The notes under the pieces were generated by a model that was given only the letters and a program-made list of their open reading frames with translations, was not told where the DNA came from and did no database searches. Below are positions 2,109-10,570 of a stretch of 14,152 nt of DNA, piece by piece. The stretch covers positions 1 to 14,152 of the forward strand of contig JALRLY010000199.1 of assembly GCA_023647555.1 (NCBI GenBank), written 5' to 3'. The translations under genes and the position numbers were made by a program. Source of the stretch: Pancytospora philotis (Eukaryota > Microsporidia). Each line of letters starts with the position of its first letter. Position 1 is the first letter of the stretch.

Positions 2109-2555
2109 TCACTCGTCGCCGATCATGTCGTCCAGACGCCTGTAGTACGCCCAGCGCGTGATCCACTCGGGGTCGTCGTAGTGGCGCTTGCACTCGGCGA
2201 TGCGGCCCCGCAGCTCCTGCCGCAGATTCGCGCCGCGGCTGATCCGCTCCTCGAGCTCGAGGCACTCGTTGAGGAAGCGCGGGCTCACCGCCTCGCTCGG
2301 GCTGGTGAAGAGCTTGGCGCGCAGGAAGTCGTCCTTGAGCGTGCTGTAGGCCTCGTTCAGCTGCGCGCTGTCGATCCGCTGCGCTGGCAACGCGCCAGAG
2401 ATCCCGCGCCCGCCAGTGCTCGGCACGCGCATCTGCACGTCCGGGTGGGCCGCCTTGGACAGTCTGTAGTACTCTCGCTTCAGCTGCTCCTTGTCTATCT
2501 GGAACGCCGGCGGCATGCGGAAAACGCCGAAGATCTCCTTGGCCTTCTCGATCAT
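2109..2555 (-). CDS. JAC1: HscB/Jac1-type J-domain co-chaperone for iron-sulfur cluster assembly
   Basis: This 148-residue protein has an N-terminal J domain (about residues 8-84) with the diagnostic HPD at 37-39, preceded by the HscB-type PPAFQID segment (15-21). A C-terminal helical HSCB-like domain (about 90-147) includes the FLNECLELEE stretch that contacts the scaffold in this family. In eukaryotes Jac1/HscB stimulates a mitochondrial Hsp70 to release a cluster from the Isu scaffold; in microsporidia this would occur in the mitosome. An upstream in-frame ATG at 2618 would add 21 residues with no basic residue, unlike a targeting presequence. I prefer 2555 because GGGAATTTCAATCCC abuts it. 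No presequence is evident with this start. The family call is strong from HPD plus C-terminal domain. Confidence 0.88.
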   Translation of the reverse strand: MIEKAKEIFGVFRMPPAFQIDKEQLKREYYRLSKAAHPDVQMRVPSTGGRGISGALPAQRIDSAQLNEAYSTLKDDFLRAKLFTSPSEAVSPRFLNECLELEERISRGANLRQELRGRIAECKRHYDDPEWITRWAYYRRLDDMIGDE

Positions 2556-2570
2556 GGGATTGAAATTCCC
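2556..2570 (-). promoter_or_regulatory. Start signal of JAC1 that decides the start codon
   Basis: On the minus strand the 15 bases GGGAATTTCAATCCC touch the ATG at 2555. An AATTT core is flanked by both GGG and CCC. No comparable motif precedes the alternative upstream ATG at 2618. Confidence 0.55.
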
Positions 2571-2706
2571 GTCTTGTAAATCGGCGATAGAAGCGACAGT
2601 TGCGGTATGCTGCAGCATTTTAAACAGTTATCAAGCCGAAGCACTAGTAGAATAGAGTCATACGATATAATTTAGTTACAGTAGTTGGAATGCACAAGCC
2701 CTGCAC

Positions 2707-4005
2707 TCAAAGGGCCTCCACGCGCTGCTCGACGCTCAGCATGCGCTGGCCCCGGTACGGCGTGTCCCTCGCGTTCGGCGACCGCCAGACGGGGTCGAAG
2801 ATGGCCACATCATCGATATCAGTCATTTTCCTTGAGATGTTGCGCTCGGTCATGATCTTTGAGAGGTAGAGCGAGTTCTTGCCCGCGTCGTCCTTCTCGA
2901 TGTCGATGCTCGCGGCGGGCGGCGCCGTGTACGGATCGATCACCAGCATCCAGATATCCTCGCAGTGCTTGATGTCGGACAGCAGCCTGCTGCAGGAATT
3001 GATCTCCTCGGCGTTGTTGATCAGGTACCACCGCTTCTTCTTGTCGATCGTGTCCTCATCGTTGCCGATGATCTCCATGCCCGCGATCCGCCGCACAAAC
3101 GGCACGAGGACCCGCAGACGGTCTATGCTGACCGCATACTGCCCGTACAGCTTGAGGAGGCGGTTCAGCCGCGCGGCCACGAAGCGGTTGCAGTTCGCCG
3201 CGATCTCGCAGCTGCGCGGGTCGCGGATGCTGAAATAGCCGATTATCTCGGCGTGGATGCCCACCATGTAGTTCGCCAGCTGGACATGATAGTAGTCGAT
3301 CACCGTCCTGTGCTCGGCGTTCGTCAGCTTCTCGACCGGCGTGTCCAGCGTCTTGTATCGCACCGTGGCTGCGCTCCTGTCCTTGATCACGTAGTCTATG
3401 AGCTTTATGATGCGGCCTCTCGGCTGCTTTTTCTCGTAGTCGTAGAGGCAGTGGAGTTTGTCGCCGAACTTTGTGCTCACCAGCTGCTCGAGCATCACCT
3501 CGTAGAACAGGTCGAGCCCTGCGATCGCCCTGCCCAGGTCCTTCTGCACGGCGCGGGCCGCCGTCACCGCGCGATTGTGGTTCGTGCGGATGAGGCTGGA
3601 GCGCTCGTCTCTGAAGGGCGAGCTCAGATTCACCACGCTGTAGTCCCGCACGTACGTGATGCACGCGTCGTAGAAGTCGTGATACGCCGGGGTGAATATC
3701 CTGTACGGATCGAGCTGCTGCTTGAGGACGCGGCTGAGCGCCTCCTCGAAGTTCGCGAGGTTGCCGAGGTAAAAGTTGAGCATCTTGCTGATCTCGCTGA
3801 AGTTGCTCTTCTGCAGCAGCCGCCGCTCCACGGGGCCGGCTATCGATCTGCTGATCACGGCGCCGTAGGTGTCTTTCGTCACTGCGACGCTGTTTCTCAG
3901 CGTGTCGGTCTGGGAGACCGTGTCGCCCGCGGTGCTGAACGACGACTTCGCCCTGTTCACCATCGCGCTCCCGAACTCTAATATTTTTAGAAAGAACGCC
4001 CGCAT
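2707..4005 (-). CDS. Helical protein, possible BAR-domain (Rvs161/amphiphysin-like) membrane-curvature protein
   Basis: The frame opens at a GTG (4029), but the first ATG is 4005, preceded by AAAATTTTT (4030-4038) and a CCGCCCC run, so the protein is 432 residues. It begins with an amphipathic helix (residues 1-20), then long helical stretches. Residues 200-290 resemble the second half of a BAR domain: an IKDR turn (207-210), Y217, a VEKL segment (224-227), an AE pair (230-231), a helix rich in Y, and a final NRLLKLYGQY helix. Fungal Rvs161/Rvs167 BAR proteins dimerise on curved membranes in endocytosis. The tail after about 310 (acidic, then basic) has no recognised domain, and I see no SH3 domain. 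The gene is certain; the BAR assignment is pattern-based inference and could be wrong. It is divergent from the Mis18-type gene. Confidence 0.8.
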   Translation of the reverse strand: MRAFFLKILEFGSAMVNRAKSSFSTAGDTVSQTDTLRNSVAVTKDTYGAVISRSIAGPVERRLLQKSNFSEISKMLNFYLGNLANFEEALSRVLKQQLDPYRIFTPAYHDFYDACITYVRDYSVVNLSSPFRDERSSLIRTNHNRAVTAARAVQKDLGRAIAGLDLFYEVMLEQLVSTKFGDKLHCLYDYEKKQPRGRIIKLIDYVIKDRSAATVRYKTLDTPVEKLTNAEHRTVIDYYHVQLANYMVGIHAEIIGYFSIRDPRSCEIAANCNRFVAARLNRLLKLYGQYAVSIDRLRVLVPFVRRIAGMEIIGNDEDTIDKKKRWYLINNAEEINSCSRLLSDIKHCEDIWMLVIDPYTAPPAASIDIEKDDAGKNSLYLSKIMTERNISRKMTDIDDVAIFDPVWRSPNARDTPYRGQRMLSVEQRVEAL

Positions 4006-5189: not shown

Positions 5190-6488
5190 ATGGGTGTGAA
5201 ACGCGCTGATCCAGCGGCCAGAGGCAGCAAGGGACGCGGCGATGCGGGCAGGCCGAGATCGGGCAGCGGGTTCGGCAAGGACAAGCGGCGCGACCACAGC
5301 GACAGCAAAGACAAGCGGCGCGACCACAGCGACAGCAAGGATGCGCACAGCCCGTCGAAGACCAAGAAGCCGAGCGGGCCGCAGATAGAGTACGTGCTCG
5401 ACGACGCGACGCCCGAGGAGCGCACGCTCATCAAGGAGGGGACGATGGCGGACCGCATCAACTGCCTTTCGCTGCTCTGCGCACGCAGCCCGACCGTGGA
5501 GAACTACAAGCAGCTGCTGTTCTTCGCCGAGAACCAGCGCAACGACGTGATGTACCACGTGCTCAAGAATCTGCGGGACCTGCTCAGGGAGAAGATCGTG
5601 GACGATCTGTACATCCGCGGGCGCATAGTGAAGACCTTCGACCGCGGGCTGAAGAACCAGTACATCAAGGAGAAGGTGATCGATCTGGTGGGCGTGCTAG
5701 TGCGCACGGGCGTGTACGTGGAGGAGTTCGCGTCTCTGCTCGTCGAGCGGCTGCTTGAGAAGGACAAGGCGCTGCGGCTGGTCGAGACCGAGCTCAAGCG
5801 GATCATCCTCAAGCACCAGGAGCTCGTGGTCTCGTACATCGAGGACTTCTACTACAAGAACGACACCTTCCGTGTGCAGTACATCATCCTGCGCTTCCTC
5901 TCCACGGTGGATCTGCCCAACCCCGCGAGCCTCTTTGATTTCTACAACCAGGCGCTCACGACGCTGGACACCGAGTACCCGACCGACCAGTACAATCTGA
6001 TGCTCGACTGCGTCATCAACGGGCTGAGCATCTCTGCCGAGCCGGGCGCGGTGGTGGAGCGCATCGAGCTGGTCAGGAACTTCGTCGGCTCGCCCAAGAC
6101 TGTCATTTCGTGTCTGCGCCTGCTCACCAAGCTGGCCGATCCCTTCCTCGAGGCGTACATCATCCGTACCGTCAAGTCCTCGATACTCCGTGCCACGCCA
6201 CAGGAGGCCGATTTCCTGAACGTCATCGCCGGTCTGGACAATAAGTCGCTGATCACCAAGATTGTGAATGACTGCTTCTTCTACTCCGTTTCCTTTATCA
6301 TCGCTGTGATGCTGATCGCTTCTGAGAAGGGCGTGGATCCGAGCGGCCTGTACAGCATTGCCATTCTTATACGGCACTACCACCCGGCGGTGCGCGAGGC
6401 GGCCGCCAAGCTGATGCGCGACGAACCGCTGCCTATGTACGATCCGTATGACCGTGTGCTGCTCGATTCTATCACTGCAATGTACTAA
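5190..6488 (+). CDS. NOC1: Noc1/Mak21 (CCAAT-binding-factor family) ribosome-biogenesis protein, compact form
   Basis: The protein has 432 residues. Residues 1-65 are a basic, low-complexity tail typical of nucleolar proteins. From about 78 it matches Noc1/Mak21/CEBPZ. The entry motif is EGTMADRINCLSLL (83-96), then a helical-repeat array with a conserved VQYIILRFLSTV helix (229-240), a NLMLDCVINGL segment (269-279), and the CBF-domain end motif HYHPAV (396-401). Noc1 pairs with Noc2 in nucleolar pre-60S assembly. The yeast and human proteins are around 1000 residues, so this is a core-only version, as in other microsporidian proteins. The N-terminal tail holds an exact 10-residue duplication. 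The 3' end faces the retrotransposon and HIR1. The start has a clear AAATTT/GGG context. The family call rests on several aligned motifs remembered from the family, not on a search. Confidence 0.82.
   Translation: MGVKRADPAARGSKGRGDAGRPRSGSGFGKDKRRDHSDSKDKRRDHSDSKDAHSPSKTKKPSGPQIEYVLDDATPEERTLIKEGTMADRINCLSLLCARSPTVENYKQLLFFAENQRNDVMYHVLKNLRDLLREKIVDDLYIRGRIVKTFDRGLKNQYIKEKVIDLVGVLVRTGVYVEEFASLLVERLLEKDKALRLVETELKRIILKHQELVVSYIEDFYYKNDTFRVQYIILRFLSTVDLPNPASLFDFYNQALTTLDTEYPTDQYNLMLDCVINGLSISAEPGAVVERIELVRNFVGSPKTVISCLRLLTKLADPFLEAYIIRTVKSSILRATPQEADFLNVIAGLDNKSLITKIVNDCFFYSVSFIIAVMLIASEKGVDPSGLYSIAILIRHYHPAVREAAAKLMRDEPLPMYDPYDRVLLDSITAMY
5281..5340 (+). repeat. Two tandem 30-bp units inside NOC1
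   Basis: Units 5281-5310 and 5311-5340 differ at one base (A at 5309, G at 5339), a silent AAA/AAG lysine change. Each codes for a basic, aspartate/serine-containing decapeptide (KDKRRDHSDS register). The near identity implies a recent in-frame duplication in a disordered tail. Confidence 0.9.
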
Positions 6489-6759
6489 GAGCGATGTTAT
6501 TGCTGCTTATTACTGCAGTGGTCAGTGGCTTATGCTTTATTCAGTAAATTAGATGGATAACATGATTTTTGTGGTGTAGCTGCGTTCTATCTAATGGTCA
6601 AAACATATTAATTGTGTCTCTAAGAAGTGCATGTGAAATAAAATCAGCTTTGTTGAGAATAAGATTCATCACTGTCTGCAGTGCTAGTAAATCCTAAACC
6701 ATTACTATTGCAGCATAAATTATACAACCCACGTTCCATCCAATAACAGGTAAAAAAAT
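6489..6759. other. 3' spacer of NOC1 up to the retrotransposon
   Basis: This AT-rich stretch has no open frame of note. AATAAA near 6639 is a candidate polyadenylation signal for NOC1. Before the insertion it was the convergent spacer between NOC1 and HIR1, which ended in the bases now at 10571-10594. Confidence 0.5.
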
Positions 6760-6764
6760 ACTAT
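6760..6764. repeat. Target-site duplication, left copy
   Basis: ACTAT directly abuts the LTR terminus TGTCG. The same five bases follow the other terminus at 10566-10570. Five bp is the usual duplication for Ty3/gypsy integrases. Confidence 0.93.
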
Positions 6765-6857
6765 TGTCGTAATGAGATTTATTGTTGAGATTAAGAGGAC
6801 TGTCGGGTAGTAAAGGCATGGGGGTAAAAATAATATTCCCTTAAATATCCGACGACA
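6765..6857 (-). repeat. 3' LTR (93 bp)
   Basis: This LTR is identical to 10473-10565 and begins and ends with the 5-bp inverted repeat TGTCG/CGACA. On the minus strand it contains a TATA-like ATATTTAA, the TAA that ends the polyprotein (6841-6843), TTTTTACCCCC-ATG (ATG 6819-6817), and AATAAA (6783-6778) about 13 bases before its end, where 3'-end formation would be expected. Confidence 0.97.
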
Positions 6858-9800
6858 CTCCCCCCTCCTGTGAAGAGTCCTTTTTAATGTGATGCCTATT
6901 TATTCGGTACTGGCCAGTACTATTTTCAACTATGAAAGCATCTGGTTCTACTAAGCCTACTACTTTAAATCCTCTGATCCAATTGTTGGCGAGCTTTTTC
7001 CCGAGTTGTTGTTTGAAGATCAGTACTTGGTCTCCAATTTGGATGAGGGAAGCCTGAGGAATCTTGCCTTTTTGGATATGGCTTTCCCTATAATGATCCC
7101 CATGCTGTCTAAGATTTCTCGTGACCTTTTCTAGATCAACGCCGAGGTCTAACTTACCATGAACGGCATCGATCGTTAAATTAGGAAGAATTCCATATTT
7201 TAGAATAGCTGGACAAGTTCCTATAGCTCTGTTGAATGAGAGATTGACTCCTTTTGCTGCTGCTTTGACATAGAGATCCCAGCTTTTATGCCCAAAGTTG
7301 CAAAGCTTCTTAATCTTATTGAAAAGAGTCTGGTTAACTCGTTCAACTGCACCAACCGTTTCGTGATGTCCCGGAGAACAAAAGTCATGCTGGATACCAT
7401 GAATATTTAGAACGTTTGCTAGAACATTATTGTCAAACTCGAGGCCATTATCAGTAAGAATTCTTTGTGGTGACCCATGCTTATCGATGATGAGTTGCTG
7501 AACTAGTCTAGCTATGCTCTCTTTATCCTTAGTTTTAATCGGAGCGGCCTCGACCCACTTGGTATAATGATCAATCGCCACAAAAATAAACTTATTACCA
7601 TGTTTAGTTTCTTCTAGATATCCTATTATGTCAACTTCCCAGAGCTCATTTGGGCCTGCTGGCAGTATAGACCTATTCCCGAGCTTCTTATTTTCGTACC
7701 CACCACACAAACACGGTATGCATCTACTCACGTGGTTATCAATGTCATGGTACATACCTGGCCACTTGTATTTCTGTTGAATCAAGTATTTCATTGCCGC
7801 ACTACTTCCGTGTCCGAGTGCCATATGATAGTCGTCGAGGATTGCATTTCGCTGTGTTACAGACAGACAAGACTCGTTATCGTCACTTTGTATGACACCG
7901 ACATACCTACTAATCGAATCAGCTGGATTATCAACTCCCTTGATGTGCTCAATATCGTAAGAAAAATGCTGTAAGAGCGAGGCGTATCTTAATTGTCGGC
8001 CAGATGGATTTTTACAGTCTTGTAGAAAAACTAAAGCTCGATGATCAGTACGAAGCGTAAAACGCCGGCCTAACAAATAGTGTCGGAAGTAATCAAGTGT
8101 TTTTACGATAGCAAGTAGTTCAAGGTCAGTTGTTGCGTAGTTTTTCTGAGCTTTATCGAGAACTCGACTAAAGGTATGGATAACCCGCTCATGCCCATTT
8201 TCATCTTTTTGTACAAGAAGGCCGCCGATGGCCACATGAGAGGCGTCCGTAATTACAATAAAATCTCTGGAAAAATTGGGCATTGCGAGGAAAGTACTCT
8301 CTTTCATTGCTGCTTTTACAGCCTTAAAGGCCTCGGCTGATTCTTCGGTCCAATCAACTTTTTGGGTACTCTTCTTTGGCTCCCCTTTGAGCATGGCATA
8401 GAGTGGCAGTGTAAGCTGAGTGAACTTAGGAATAAACTCCCTATTATAGTTGACTAGGCCCAAGAATGATCTGAGTTCTGATAAATTCTCTGGGCGCTTA
8501 TAGTTCTGTATTGCGACTATTTTTTCAGGATCTGGTCGGACACTATCTTTACTAATAACAAATCCAAGTATTTTGACTTCGGGCTTAAGAAACATGCATT
8601 TTTTTCGATTCAGAGCCATGTTAATTCCTTTCAAACGGGCTAAAACAATTTCTAAGTGTTCAATATGCTCTTCGGGCGTTTTGGAGAATATTATGATATC
8701 ATCAAAATACGGGAGCACAAAAGCCCTATCATTCTGGAATGCCTGGTTCATTATGCGCTGGAAGGTTGCTGGCGCGTTGCACAGACCAAACGGCATTCTA
8801 TTAAACTCGTACAGGCCGTATTTCCAAGAAAACGCTGTTTTGCATCGGTCTTCTTGGGCGAGCTCAACTTGATAATAACCGGACGTCGCGTCAAGCGTAG
8901 AAAATACGGCGGCGCCACTCAATGCATCGAGAATCTCATCGATCCTCGGTATGGGATATTGATCTTTGATAGTAACCTTGTTGAGTGGACGATAGTCAAT
9001 GCACATACGCAGACTACCATCTTTTTTAGGGACCGGAACAATTCGTGATGACCATGAGCTCGATGAAGGGGCTATGATGCCTAGCTCAAGATTTTTCTTT
9101 ATCTCATTATCTAAAGCTTGTTCATAAGCAACAGGTATCCTTGAATTACCTGCTGAAATGGGGCGTGCATCTCCGACGTTGATGCGGTGTTGACCCAGTG
9201 TACACTTAACATTCTGTGTGATCTGTGTCTGAAAAAGCGAGTCCATCTTTGTCAACAGCGATTGTAAACATAAGTCGATATTAACTTGAGAAACTGCCTG
9301 AATTGACAATTGAACAGGGGTCTTCTTAGTGAGACTGCCTTCGAGGAGTTCGGGATGTTTTATGATAGCATCCGCTCCGATGATAACCCGATCTGGTTTG
9401 CTTTCTGATATTAAACTGCTGATATTATATGCCTTTGTATTGATAGTAATTGGGACATTGCAAGATGTACCTATAATTGTGAGATCATTCCCGCATGCCG
9501 ACTTTGCTTTTATATCAGTCTTTTGTATGTTAATTGCCTCTGGATTTGATAAGAATTTCTGGCAAATAATCGATGTGTCGGCTCCTGTATCGACTAAGAT
9601 AGGAACACGCTTACCCTGTAAGAGCCCATCTTGTTTGAACGGGTTCAATGGCTTTCGGTTGCTTGGAGAGCTAGGGTGTGACAAACGATAAATTGAAGAT
9701 GGTTTAATCACATCATTAGAGACAGGCTGTGTGCTAACATCAACTTGGCCAATAGTAGGCGATTCTTTCTTAAGCACATATCCCTGTTGTTTGAGTCTGA

Positions 9801-10527
9801 TGATAGACCAACATTCGTCTCCTGAATGGCTACGCGTGCGGTGTACTGGGCACCACTTAGAGTTGTCTCGTTTATTGGGCTTGACCGTCTTCGTTTTGTT
9901 CTGCATGTTCTTGATATAATCTACGTCAGTTTGTGATAAATCAAATTCGACCTTGTTGATAGGCGGAGATAGCGGAAGGGAGGCAAGCATATCGCTTTCG
10001 ACAACTTTTAAGAACTCCTGCCATGTTTTGGTTCCTCGGACGGCTTGTCGGATAGCCGGACCAAATTGAACAGGCATCCTTCGCGCAATTAAATACTTGA
10101 GAGCGCTCAGATTGACATAACCTAATTGAGCTAGCATATTAGTATCCTTAATAATGATAAGTAATTCCTGTTGAGATAGAACTATACTTGAAGTAATAAG
10201 ACGCTCGAATGCTTTTTCCGTTGACATCTGACCAGAGAATCGAGCTACGAATGCATCGGTGAGCTCCTTAGAAGTGATTTCCGGATTGCTTTCGATCAGA
10301 TCAGCTGCCCACGTCAGAGCTGATTCTTGCAGGCAGCAGATAAAAATTTTCACGCGTTGTTCGGGAGGAATGTTATTTGCATCGGCCCTAAGGATAAATG
10401 ACTGAAGCCAGGAATGGGCGTCTTCGTCTGGAAGACCTTTGAAGGGCTTAACGATATTTATCATCGTCGCCATGTCGTAATGAGATTTATTGTTGAGATT
10501 AAGAGGACTGTCGGGTAGTAAAGGCAT
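6841..10527 (-). CDS. Gag-Pol polyprotein of the Ty3/gypsy element, single frame
   Basis: The 1228-codon frame has no frameshift between gag and pol. Gag (about 20-210) is followed by a zinc-knuckle variant C226-x2-H229-x4-H234-x4-C239. Protease has D313-T-G-A. Reverse transcriptase spans about 460-660 with LDATSGYYQV (545-554) and YFDD (607-610). RNase H has D761, E803, D828 and D870. Integrase has H901-x4-H906-x29-C936-x2-C939, then D966, D1026 and E1062 (exact D35E spacing). The C-terminal segment has a degenerate W-x-x-G-F module (1183-1187), and I see no chromodomain. The product would form particles, copy the RNA and integrate it. The first ATG (10527) lies in the 5' LTR behind CCCCC. 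A second ATG (10473-10471) straddles the LTR/primer-site junction and would remove 18 residues. The stop lies in the 3' LTR. Confidence 0.95.
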   Translation of the reverse strand: MPLLPDSPLNLNNKSHYDMATMINIVKPFKGLPDEDAHSWLQSFILRADANNIPPEQRVKIFICCLQESALTWAADLIESNPEITSKELTDAFVARFSGQMSTEKAFERLITSSIVLSQQELLIIIKDTNMLAQLGYVNLSALKYLIARRMPVQFGPAIRQAVRGTKTWQEFLKVVESDMLASLPLSPPINKVEFDLSQTDVDYIKNMQNKTKTVKPNKRDNSKWCPVHRTRSHSGDECWSIIRLKQQGYVLKKESPTIGQVDVSTQPVSNDVIKPSSIYRLSHPSSPSNRKPLNPFKQDGLLQGKRVPILVDTGADTSIICQKFLSNPEAINIQKTDIKAKSACGNDLTIIGTSCNVPITINTKAYNISSLISESKPDRVIIGADAIIKHPELLEGSLTKKTPVQLSIQAVSQVNIDLCLQSLLTKMDSLFQTQITQNVKCTLGQHRINVGDARPISAGNSRIPVAYEQALDNEIKKNLELGIIAPSSSSWSSRIVPVPKKDGSLRMCIDYRPLNKVTIKDQYPIPRIDEILDALSGAAVFSTLDATSGYYQVELAQEDRCKTAFSWKYGLYEFNRMPFGLCNAPATFQRIMNQAFQNDRAFVLPYFDDIIIFSKTPEEHIEHLEIVLARLKGINMALNRKKCMFLKPEVKILGFVISKDSVRPDPEKIVAIQNYKRPENLSELRSFLGLVNYNREFIPKFTQLTLPLYAMLKGEPKKSTQKVDWTEESAEAFKAVKAAMKESTFLAMPNFSRDFIVITDASHVAIGGLLVQKDENGHERVIHTFSRVLDKAQKNYATTDLELLAIVKTLDYFRHYLLGRRFTLRTDHRALVFLQDCKNPSGRQLRYASLLQHFSYDIEHIKGVDNPADSISRYVGVIQSDDNESCLSVTQRNAILDDYHMALGHGSSAAMKYLIQQKYKWPGMYHDIDNHVSRCIPCLCGGYENKKLGNRSILPAGPNELWEVDIIGYLEETKHGNKFIFVAIDHYTKWVEAAPIKTKDKESIARLVQQLIIDKHGSPQRILTDNGLEFDNNVLANVLNIHGIQHDFCSPGHHETVGAVERVNQTLFNKIKKLCNFGHKSWDLYVKAAAKGVNLSFNRAIGTCPAILKYGILPNLTIDAVHGKLDLGVDLEKVTRNLRQHGDHYRESHIQKGKIPQASLIQIGDQVLIFKQQLGKKLANNWIRGFKVVGLVEPDAFIVENSTGQYRINRHHIKKDSSQEGGVSSDI
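6858..6869 (-). other. Polypurine tract of the retrotransposon
   Basis: On the minus strand the 12 bases AGGAGGGGGGAG directly precede the 3' LTR terminus TGTCG, the position required for plus-strand DNA priming. The tract is also coding: it contributes the Q-E-G-G-V codons near the polyprotein C-terminus. Confidence 0.9.
10457..10472 (-). other. Primer-binding site of the retrotransposon, probable tRNA-Ser primer
   Basis: On the minus strand TGGCGACGATGATAAA abuts the 5' LTR end. TGG is the complement of the tRNA CCA end. TGGCGAC complements the GUCGCCA end usual for eukaryotic tRNA-Ser (G73). The site overlaps the Gag codons M-A-T-M-I. Position and TGG are direct evidence; the tRNA identity is inferred. 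Confidence 0.8.
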
Positions 10528-10565
10528 GGGGGTAAAAATAATATTCCCTTAAATATCCGACGACA
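10473..10565 (-). repeat. 5' LTR (93 bp)
   Basis: This LTR is identical base for base to 6765-6857. It carries the element promoter, the polyprotein ATG (10527-10525) behind TTTTTACCCCC, and the first 18 codons. AATAAA (10491-10486) is read here as Asn-Lys codons and must be ignored as a polyadenylation signal in the 5' copy. Confidence 0.97.
10528..10538 (-). promoter_or_regulatory. Host-like start signal inside the LTR
   Basis: On the minus strand TTTTTACCCCC directly abuts ATG 10527, with an AT-rich ATATTTAAGGGAATATTA stretch upstream. This resembles the CCC-type signal of the host genes and supports 10527 as the used start. Confidence 0.45.
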
Positions 10566-10570
10566 ACTAT
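10566..10570. repeat. Target-site duplication, right copy
   Basis: ACTAT directly follows the LTR terminus CGACA and matches 6760-6764. Confidence 0.93.

Follow-up and report, generated by a model that had tools for sequence, protein, structure and literature searches.

A Ty3/gypsy-type element of the microsporidian Pancytospora philotis with a single frame running from LTR to LTR and a probable host-type start signal inside its LTR

Introduction

The GAG frame of the retrotransposon Ty1 begins inside the 5' long terminal repeat (LTR), with a frameshift between its frames, LTRs some 334 bp long and non-coding DNA amounting to a few hundred base pairs per unit, and in Ty3 the reverse transcriptase precedes the integrase. 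The present study concerns an element of the nematode-infecting microsporidian Pancytospora philotis that shares this order of the two domains with Ty3 and leaves 21 non-coding bp per unit. It was analysed within a stretch of 14,152 nucleotides (contig JALRLY010000199.1, assembly GCA_023647555.1), referred to as the window, in which it occupies positions 6765..10565 of the minus strand, and its single reading frame starts in one LTR and stops in the other. According to the available text of PMC4974528, Ty1 resembles the window element in carrying its primer-binding site inside the GAG frame, but belongs to the Ty1/copia type, is primed by a transfer RNA (tRNA), tRNA-iMet, and has two frames; Ty3 is short, like the window element, and unlike it is primed by tRNA-iMet (PMC4974528).

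Microsporidian Ty3/gypsy elements have been described as encoding one polyprotein (Parisot et al., 2014; PMC4202319), and they have in common with the window element this single polyprotein in place of gag and pol frames, the Ty3/gypsy domains and a microsporidian host. The accessible portion of that article holds no statement on frames entering LTRs, LTR length, primer tRNA or start signal. For genes of Encephalitozoon cuniculi, the corresponding portion of PMC2803860 reports 5' untranslated regions (UTRs) of less than 7 nt, a CCC-like motif directly before the start codon and an AAATTT-like motif upstream. The LTRs analysed here show the same succession of an A/T-rich or AAATTT-like stretch, CCC and ATG, with the difference that the E. 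cuniculi signal is found in host genes, whereas the present unit lies inside the LTR and is hence copied to both ends of the element. Single-polyprotein microsporidian elements and the Ty1 primer site in GAG were already known; the LTR-to-LTR frame and the start signal in the LTR are apparently new. In a literature search no account came up of frames reaching from LTR to LTR, of a start signal within microsporidian LTRs or of similarly short LTRs, phrases containing a prime sign, such as 5'-LTR, not being searchable.

Results

The window element (3801 bp, minus strand, as are its features below) is delimited by two direct repeats of the form TG...CA, identical over 93/93 bp, with the 5' LTR at 10473..10565 and the 3' LTR at 6765..6857, and by a target-site duplication ATAGT at 10566..10570 on the 5' side and 6760..6764 on the 3' side. 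One Gag-protease-reverse transcriptase-RNase H-integrase frame of 1228 codons plus stop (6841..10527), annotated with Pfam, starts at position 39 of the 5' LTR and is closed by a stop codon that occupies positions 15-17 of the 3' LTR. It covers 3687 of 3801 bp (97.0%); with the LTR counted once, the unit measures 3708 bp, of which 3687 bp are coding and only 21 bp, LTR positions 18-38 (10528..10548, by arithmetic), are not. A previous reading made from the letters of the window (hereafter the sequence-only reading) had proposed this single frame, the share of about 97% and the 93-bp LTRs, and all three were confirmed. Its further claim that signals double as codons also stands, as the primer-binding site, the polypurine tract and AATAAA are all in frame: AATAAA (LTR 75-80; 10486..10491, with its 3' LTR copy at 6778-6783) is read as N-K, and the polypurine tract AGGAGGGGGGAG (6858..6869), which adjoins the 3' LTR, is translated within Q-E-G-G.

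In the encoded protein, the reverse transcriptase (residues 499-658; 8554..9033), RNase H (751-855; 7963..8277) and the integrase zinc-binding and core domains (892-1054; 7366..7854) exceeded the curated Pfam cut-offs, and the aspartyl protease region with its LVDTGAD motif (301-388; 9364..9627) scored just below them (25.8 against 28.2 and 20.1 against 20.7 bits). The succession of protease, reverse transcriptase, RNase H and integrase is the Ty3/gypsy (Metaviridae) order, with the protease below cut-offs, and the best database relatives of the protein are polyproteins annotated as retrovirus or transposon Pol from other microsporidia; the Ty3/gypsy type and the microsporidian host had been named by the sequence-only reading and are both supported. 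Four database proteins bear the name of Pancytospora philotis, and the Rfam model for microsporidian small-subunit rRNA had no match in the assembly. The element is apparently an intact and recently inserted LTR retrotransposon of the Ty3/gypsy type.

Searching the whole assembly (3.68 Mb, 83 contigs) for the reverse transcriptase gave 14 related matches, named here by contig, with C24 standing for the window and plus or minus for the strand. Six belong to complete elements with two LTRs (C24, C54, C47, C62 minus, C62 plus and C71 minus); the remaining eight (C35 twice, C79, C30, C49, C29 twice and C6) are without two identifiable LTRs, lying at contig ends, being broken or being unresolved. 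The frame starts inside the 5' LTR in all six complete elements and stops inside the 3' LTR in four. C54 (LTR of 96 bp) has the same limits as C24, starting at LTR position 39 and stopping at 3' LTR position 17, with 21 nt non-coding per unit; C47 (91 bp) extends from position 34 to 11, leaving 22 nt, and C62 plus (105 bp) from 66 to 38, leaving 27 nt. The frame of C62 minus (94 bp) begins at position 52 and stops 16 nt before the 3' LTR, with 67 nt non-coding, and that of C71 minus (38 bp) begins at position 17 and stops 15 nt before it, with 31 nt non-coding. In C47, which has an earlier in-frame ATG at position 19, and in C29a, which also has an earlier one, the ATG after CCC was chosen as the start.

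Because related elements with dissimilar LTRs show the same or nearly the same layout, the LTR-to-LTR arrangement goes beyond chance. Target duplications were readable in five of the six complete elements (C47 has N's upstream) and differ between elements (ATAGT, ATTTC twice, GGCAT and TAAAT). The sequence-only reading had advised comparison with other copies, and this was possible in part: the assembly holds no second full copy of the window family, only a solo LTR at C71:10624-10715, 97% identical and with its own duplication GACTG, which is evidence of mobility, and the comparison rests instead on the related elements of near-identical layout. C35 and C79 each carry an insertion of one and the same family; the two share a starting sequence and a 72-bp LTR, and both run off contig ends.

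The first 41 bp of the window LTR contain in succession a TATA-like box, TATTTAA (LTR 11-17; 10549..10555, so labelled from its letters), an A/T-rich stretch, CCC and ATG, and the CCCCC immediately 5' of the start codon (10528..10532) corresponds to the microsporidian CCC-like start signal (PMC2803860). Eight distinct LTRs could be compared, namely those of the six complete elements, that of C35/C79 and that of C29a. CCC precedes the LTR ATG by 10 nt or less in seven of them, as against 18 of 391 internal ATGs of the six complete elements, and AAAATTT stands just 5' of CCC in several. In all seven LTRs with CCC, CCC-ATG is in the Gag frame (chance 1/3 each), the seven being not fully independent, as C24/C54 and C47/C29a form pairs. 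The host genes of the window present a comparable picture: five of seven have CCC or GGG no more than 10 nt upstream of the ATG, compared with 45 of 315 ATGs of host DNA.

These patterns suggest that the window LTR is probably a compact microsporidian promoter-start unit giving rise to a nearly leaderless mRNA, in which R, the primer site and AATAAA are hence codons. The sequence-only reading overlooked this likely cause, namely a CCC-type start signal of microsporidian kind inside the LTR. Transcription would begin at or just past CCC, a few nucleotides from the ATG, with R extending over about LTR 34-93 and U5 close to nil. If the initiator coincides with the start codon, no room is left for a leader, and both R and the primer site would have to be read as codons. 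In the sequence the frame does lead through AATAAA, the LTR end, the tRNA-Ser primer site, Gag, Pol, the polypurine tract and 17 bp of the 3' LTR, whose TATA-like box provides the TAA. Minus-strand strong-stop DNA would carry the first Gag codons, and the primer-site codons (M-A-T-M) could be rewritten from the host tRNA in each cycle. The 3' overlap would answer no such need, the frame probably being free to run to its first stop. Whether microsporidian Ty3/gypsy elements share this leaderless design, with promoter, initiator and start codon as one unit in a very short LTR, strong-stop DNA encoding the Gag N-terminus, host tRNA templating several Gag codons and some 20-70 bp of non-coding DNA in a whole autonomous element, appears to us evenly balanced.

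The sequence directly 3' of the window 5' LTR begins with TGGCGACG, and the putative primer-binding site (10458..10472) was compared with the complement of the 3' end of tRNA-Ser(CGA). The match comprises 7 contiguous nucleotides and 13/15 overall (by eye), and the two misfits could pair as G-U. In a comparison covering 57 of the 63 tRNA matches of the assembly, relatives gave longer contiguous matches to tRNA-Ser: 15 nt in C29a (CGA), 12 in C54 (AGA), 11 in C35 (TGA) and 11 in C62 plus (GCT). Since the primer site lies within the coding frame, the residues M-A-T-M, like their variants, would reflect the 3' end of a tRNA. Tf1 is known for self-priming; a mechanism of this kind was rejected here, because no more than about 5 nt of the mRNA start CCCCCATG can pair with the junction (by eye), and in C54 the pairing is absent.

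The smallest LTRs belong to the C71 element (minus strand, 3357 bp), in which identical 38-bp AG...CT repeats are flanked by TAAAT, with GCGGGGGGA before the repeat and a primer site after it that matches tRNA-Lys(CTT) over 17 nt (by eye). Its frame of 1095 codons starts in the LTR and yields a weak gag match, reverse transcriptase, RNase H and integrase; no Pfam match to a protease was obtained at E 0.05. The sequence-only reading had placed the window element near the minimum conceivable size for an autonomous element, a claim that falls, as regards LTR length, with this smaller, possibly autonomous, element of the same assembly. If the leaderless design is true, the 38-bp LTRs would be among the shortest working LTRs, with about 25 nt left for strand transfer. 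LTRs of 38 bp are probably shorter than the default lower limit of LTR finders.

Relatives of the element were also sought elsewhere. Within viral contigs, none of 45 and none of 53 stretches were confirmed, and within genome contigs 80 stretches gave 78 loci, mostly on contigs in bacterial bins. Two of these 78 were looked into. One, L080, shows an in-frame CCC-ATG ahead of a tRNA-Ser-like primer site, TTGGCAACAATGACT, and its LTR limits could not be set; the other, L081, showed no informative LTR. The contig of L080 is assigned to a metagenome-assembled genome of Carnobacterium and carries a retroelement of the window type, probably as eukaryotic contamination. Among the first 120 listed proteins, 24 have an N-terminal extension before M-A-S/T, and others start directly at M-A; N-K precedes M-A in 11 of the 24, I-N or I-K in eight, and neither in five (one of these, P0099, from an alga). 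These residues hint at AATAAA read in its two open frames, a comparison made without a control and, except for Pancytospora, on protein sequences alone. Many described elements with the same frame would, by the terms of the sequence-only reading, have refuted it, and this holds by half: the layout does recur in the assembly, and in other species the ends of the proteins are suggestive of it, but no paper describing it was found.

Discussion

The central question is where translation starts. The junction ATG (10471..10473; codon 19 of the frame), to which the LTR contributes its final base and the primer site its TG, is the rival start codon, and its use would turn the 5' LTR into a leader and make the upstream open frame incidental. 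It is in frame in this element group, an alignment of 23 polyproteins shows the junction M and the following A (M15, A16) as nearly invariant, variation is greater in the LTR-coded residues than past the junction, and some database proteins, including the database copy of the window protein, begin at the junction M. The conservation of M-A is, however, expected from the primer site alone, since an LTR ending in CA and followed by TGG always makes an ATG. Moreover, all but one of the eight LTRs have CCC in the 10 nt preceding the LTR ATG, and none has it ahead of the junction ATG; in 8/8 LTRs the LTR ATG opens in frame and meets no stop; and C71 minus has no junction ATG at all, with C49 and L080 reading TTGG there. 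Length differences between relatives point the same way: from the LTR ATG to the junction they are multiples of three (57/57 nt in C47/C29a, 54/57 nt in C24/C54), whereas the U3 lengths of C47/C29a (33/35 nt) differ by 2 nt. A start at the junction ATG therefore seems to us unlikely, and a start at the LTR ATG has good probability, judged from the sequences compared.

Selection on the LTR-coded residues was assessed in the pairs C47/C29a and C24/C54 from the proportions of synonymous (pS) and non-synonymous (pN) differences. For C47/C29a, the 19 LTR-coded codons gave a pS of 0.56 and a pN of 0.19, and the next 150 codons 0.64 and 0.06 (Fisher p 0.027 within the LTR part and p 0.003 for pN against the rest, from rounded counts); C24/C54 is saturated (pS 0.66, pN 0.35). 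The LTR-coded N-terminal part is probably under a weaker but real protein-level constraint, and the 5' overlap looks functional. The proposal that both LTRs are constrained as coding DNA for opposite termini of the protein needs qualifying: it is partly supported for the 5' end, where purifying selection is weak (one pair, 19 codons) and less than in the rest of Gag, and is probably not borne out at the 3' end, where two of the six complete elements stop before the 3' LTR.

A number of observations weigh against the leaderless promoter-start unit. Short 5' UTRs are not universal in microsporidia, the mean in Edhazardia aedis being 180 bp according to the available part of PMC2474625. C62 plus, the sole exception among the eight LTRs, has no CCC before its LTR ATG, two of the seven window genes have neither CCC nor GGG before theirs, and the primer site of the window element matches tRNA-Ser over no more than the 7 contiguous nucleotides given above. 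The protein predicted by the gene caller for the window (P0001, 1210 aa) begins at the junction ATG, conservation of the LTR-coded residues is lower than that of the remaining Gag, and the selection comparison draws on two pairs, of which the informative one offers 19 codons.

At the 3' end, the overlap may have no function of its own, the frame simply ending at the first stop past the integrase C-terminus and coding constraint on the LTR being confined to the 5' end at most. This account, which is compatible with the promoter-start unit proposed for the 5' end, strikes us as fairly probable. The 3' end is read as passive because two elements stop earlier, 15-16 nt before the 3' LTR, and because the C-termini of relatives scatter, lying 2 to 30 residues (mean 10.7) past the last conserved motif, which was present in 49 of 87 proteins. 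Possibly pointing the other way, the TAA lies in or beside the TATA-like box in all four elements that enter the 3' LTR, as in the window element with its 3' copy of TATTTAA at 6841-6847, and many relatives retain a purine tract that leaves the frame open. On balance the 3' overlap looks mostly passive. That the whole arrangement is an artefact of assembly or chance, in which a tandem or collapsed repeat mimics LTRs or a long frame overlaps them by accident, is in our judgement extremely improbable. Several related elements do end at contig ends or beside N's, where repeats are poorly resolved; against this, the elements differ in their target duplications, the window copy has host genes to its left and right, and primer sites and purine tracts are found precisely where the LTRs end.

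With the promoter-start unit proposed for the LTR, the way in which the host makes its mRNAs, nearly without leaders and with a CCC start signal, would be tied to how a mobile element is built, and the element would illustrate the extreme to which a reverse-transcribing element can reduce its non-coding DNA. The lengths of LTR, R and 5' UTR could then be tested against one another in different microsporidia. For annotation it carries a warning, as the true Gag start is likely to lie upstream of the first ATG after the LTR.

Genomic context

Two 3' ends enclose the window element: a HIR1-like WD40 gene has its stop 29 bp before it, and a convergent gene ends at a distance of 276 bp. The C54 element is flanked by two related host frames (113-1195 and 5700-6797 of its stretch) with stretches 69-84% identical, as after a tandem duplication. 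The C62 contig (10.6 kb) is mostly filled by its two different complete elements, in opposite orientation. The repeat-rich contig C29 carries, at 2499-3515 and 5905-8703, a mariner-like frame with CCCC before its ATG and LINE-like reverse transcriptase frames (names given by eye).

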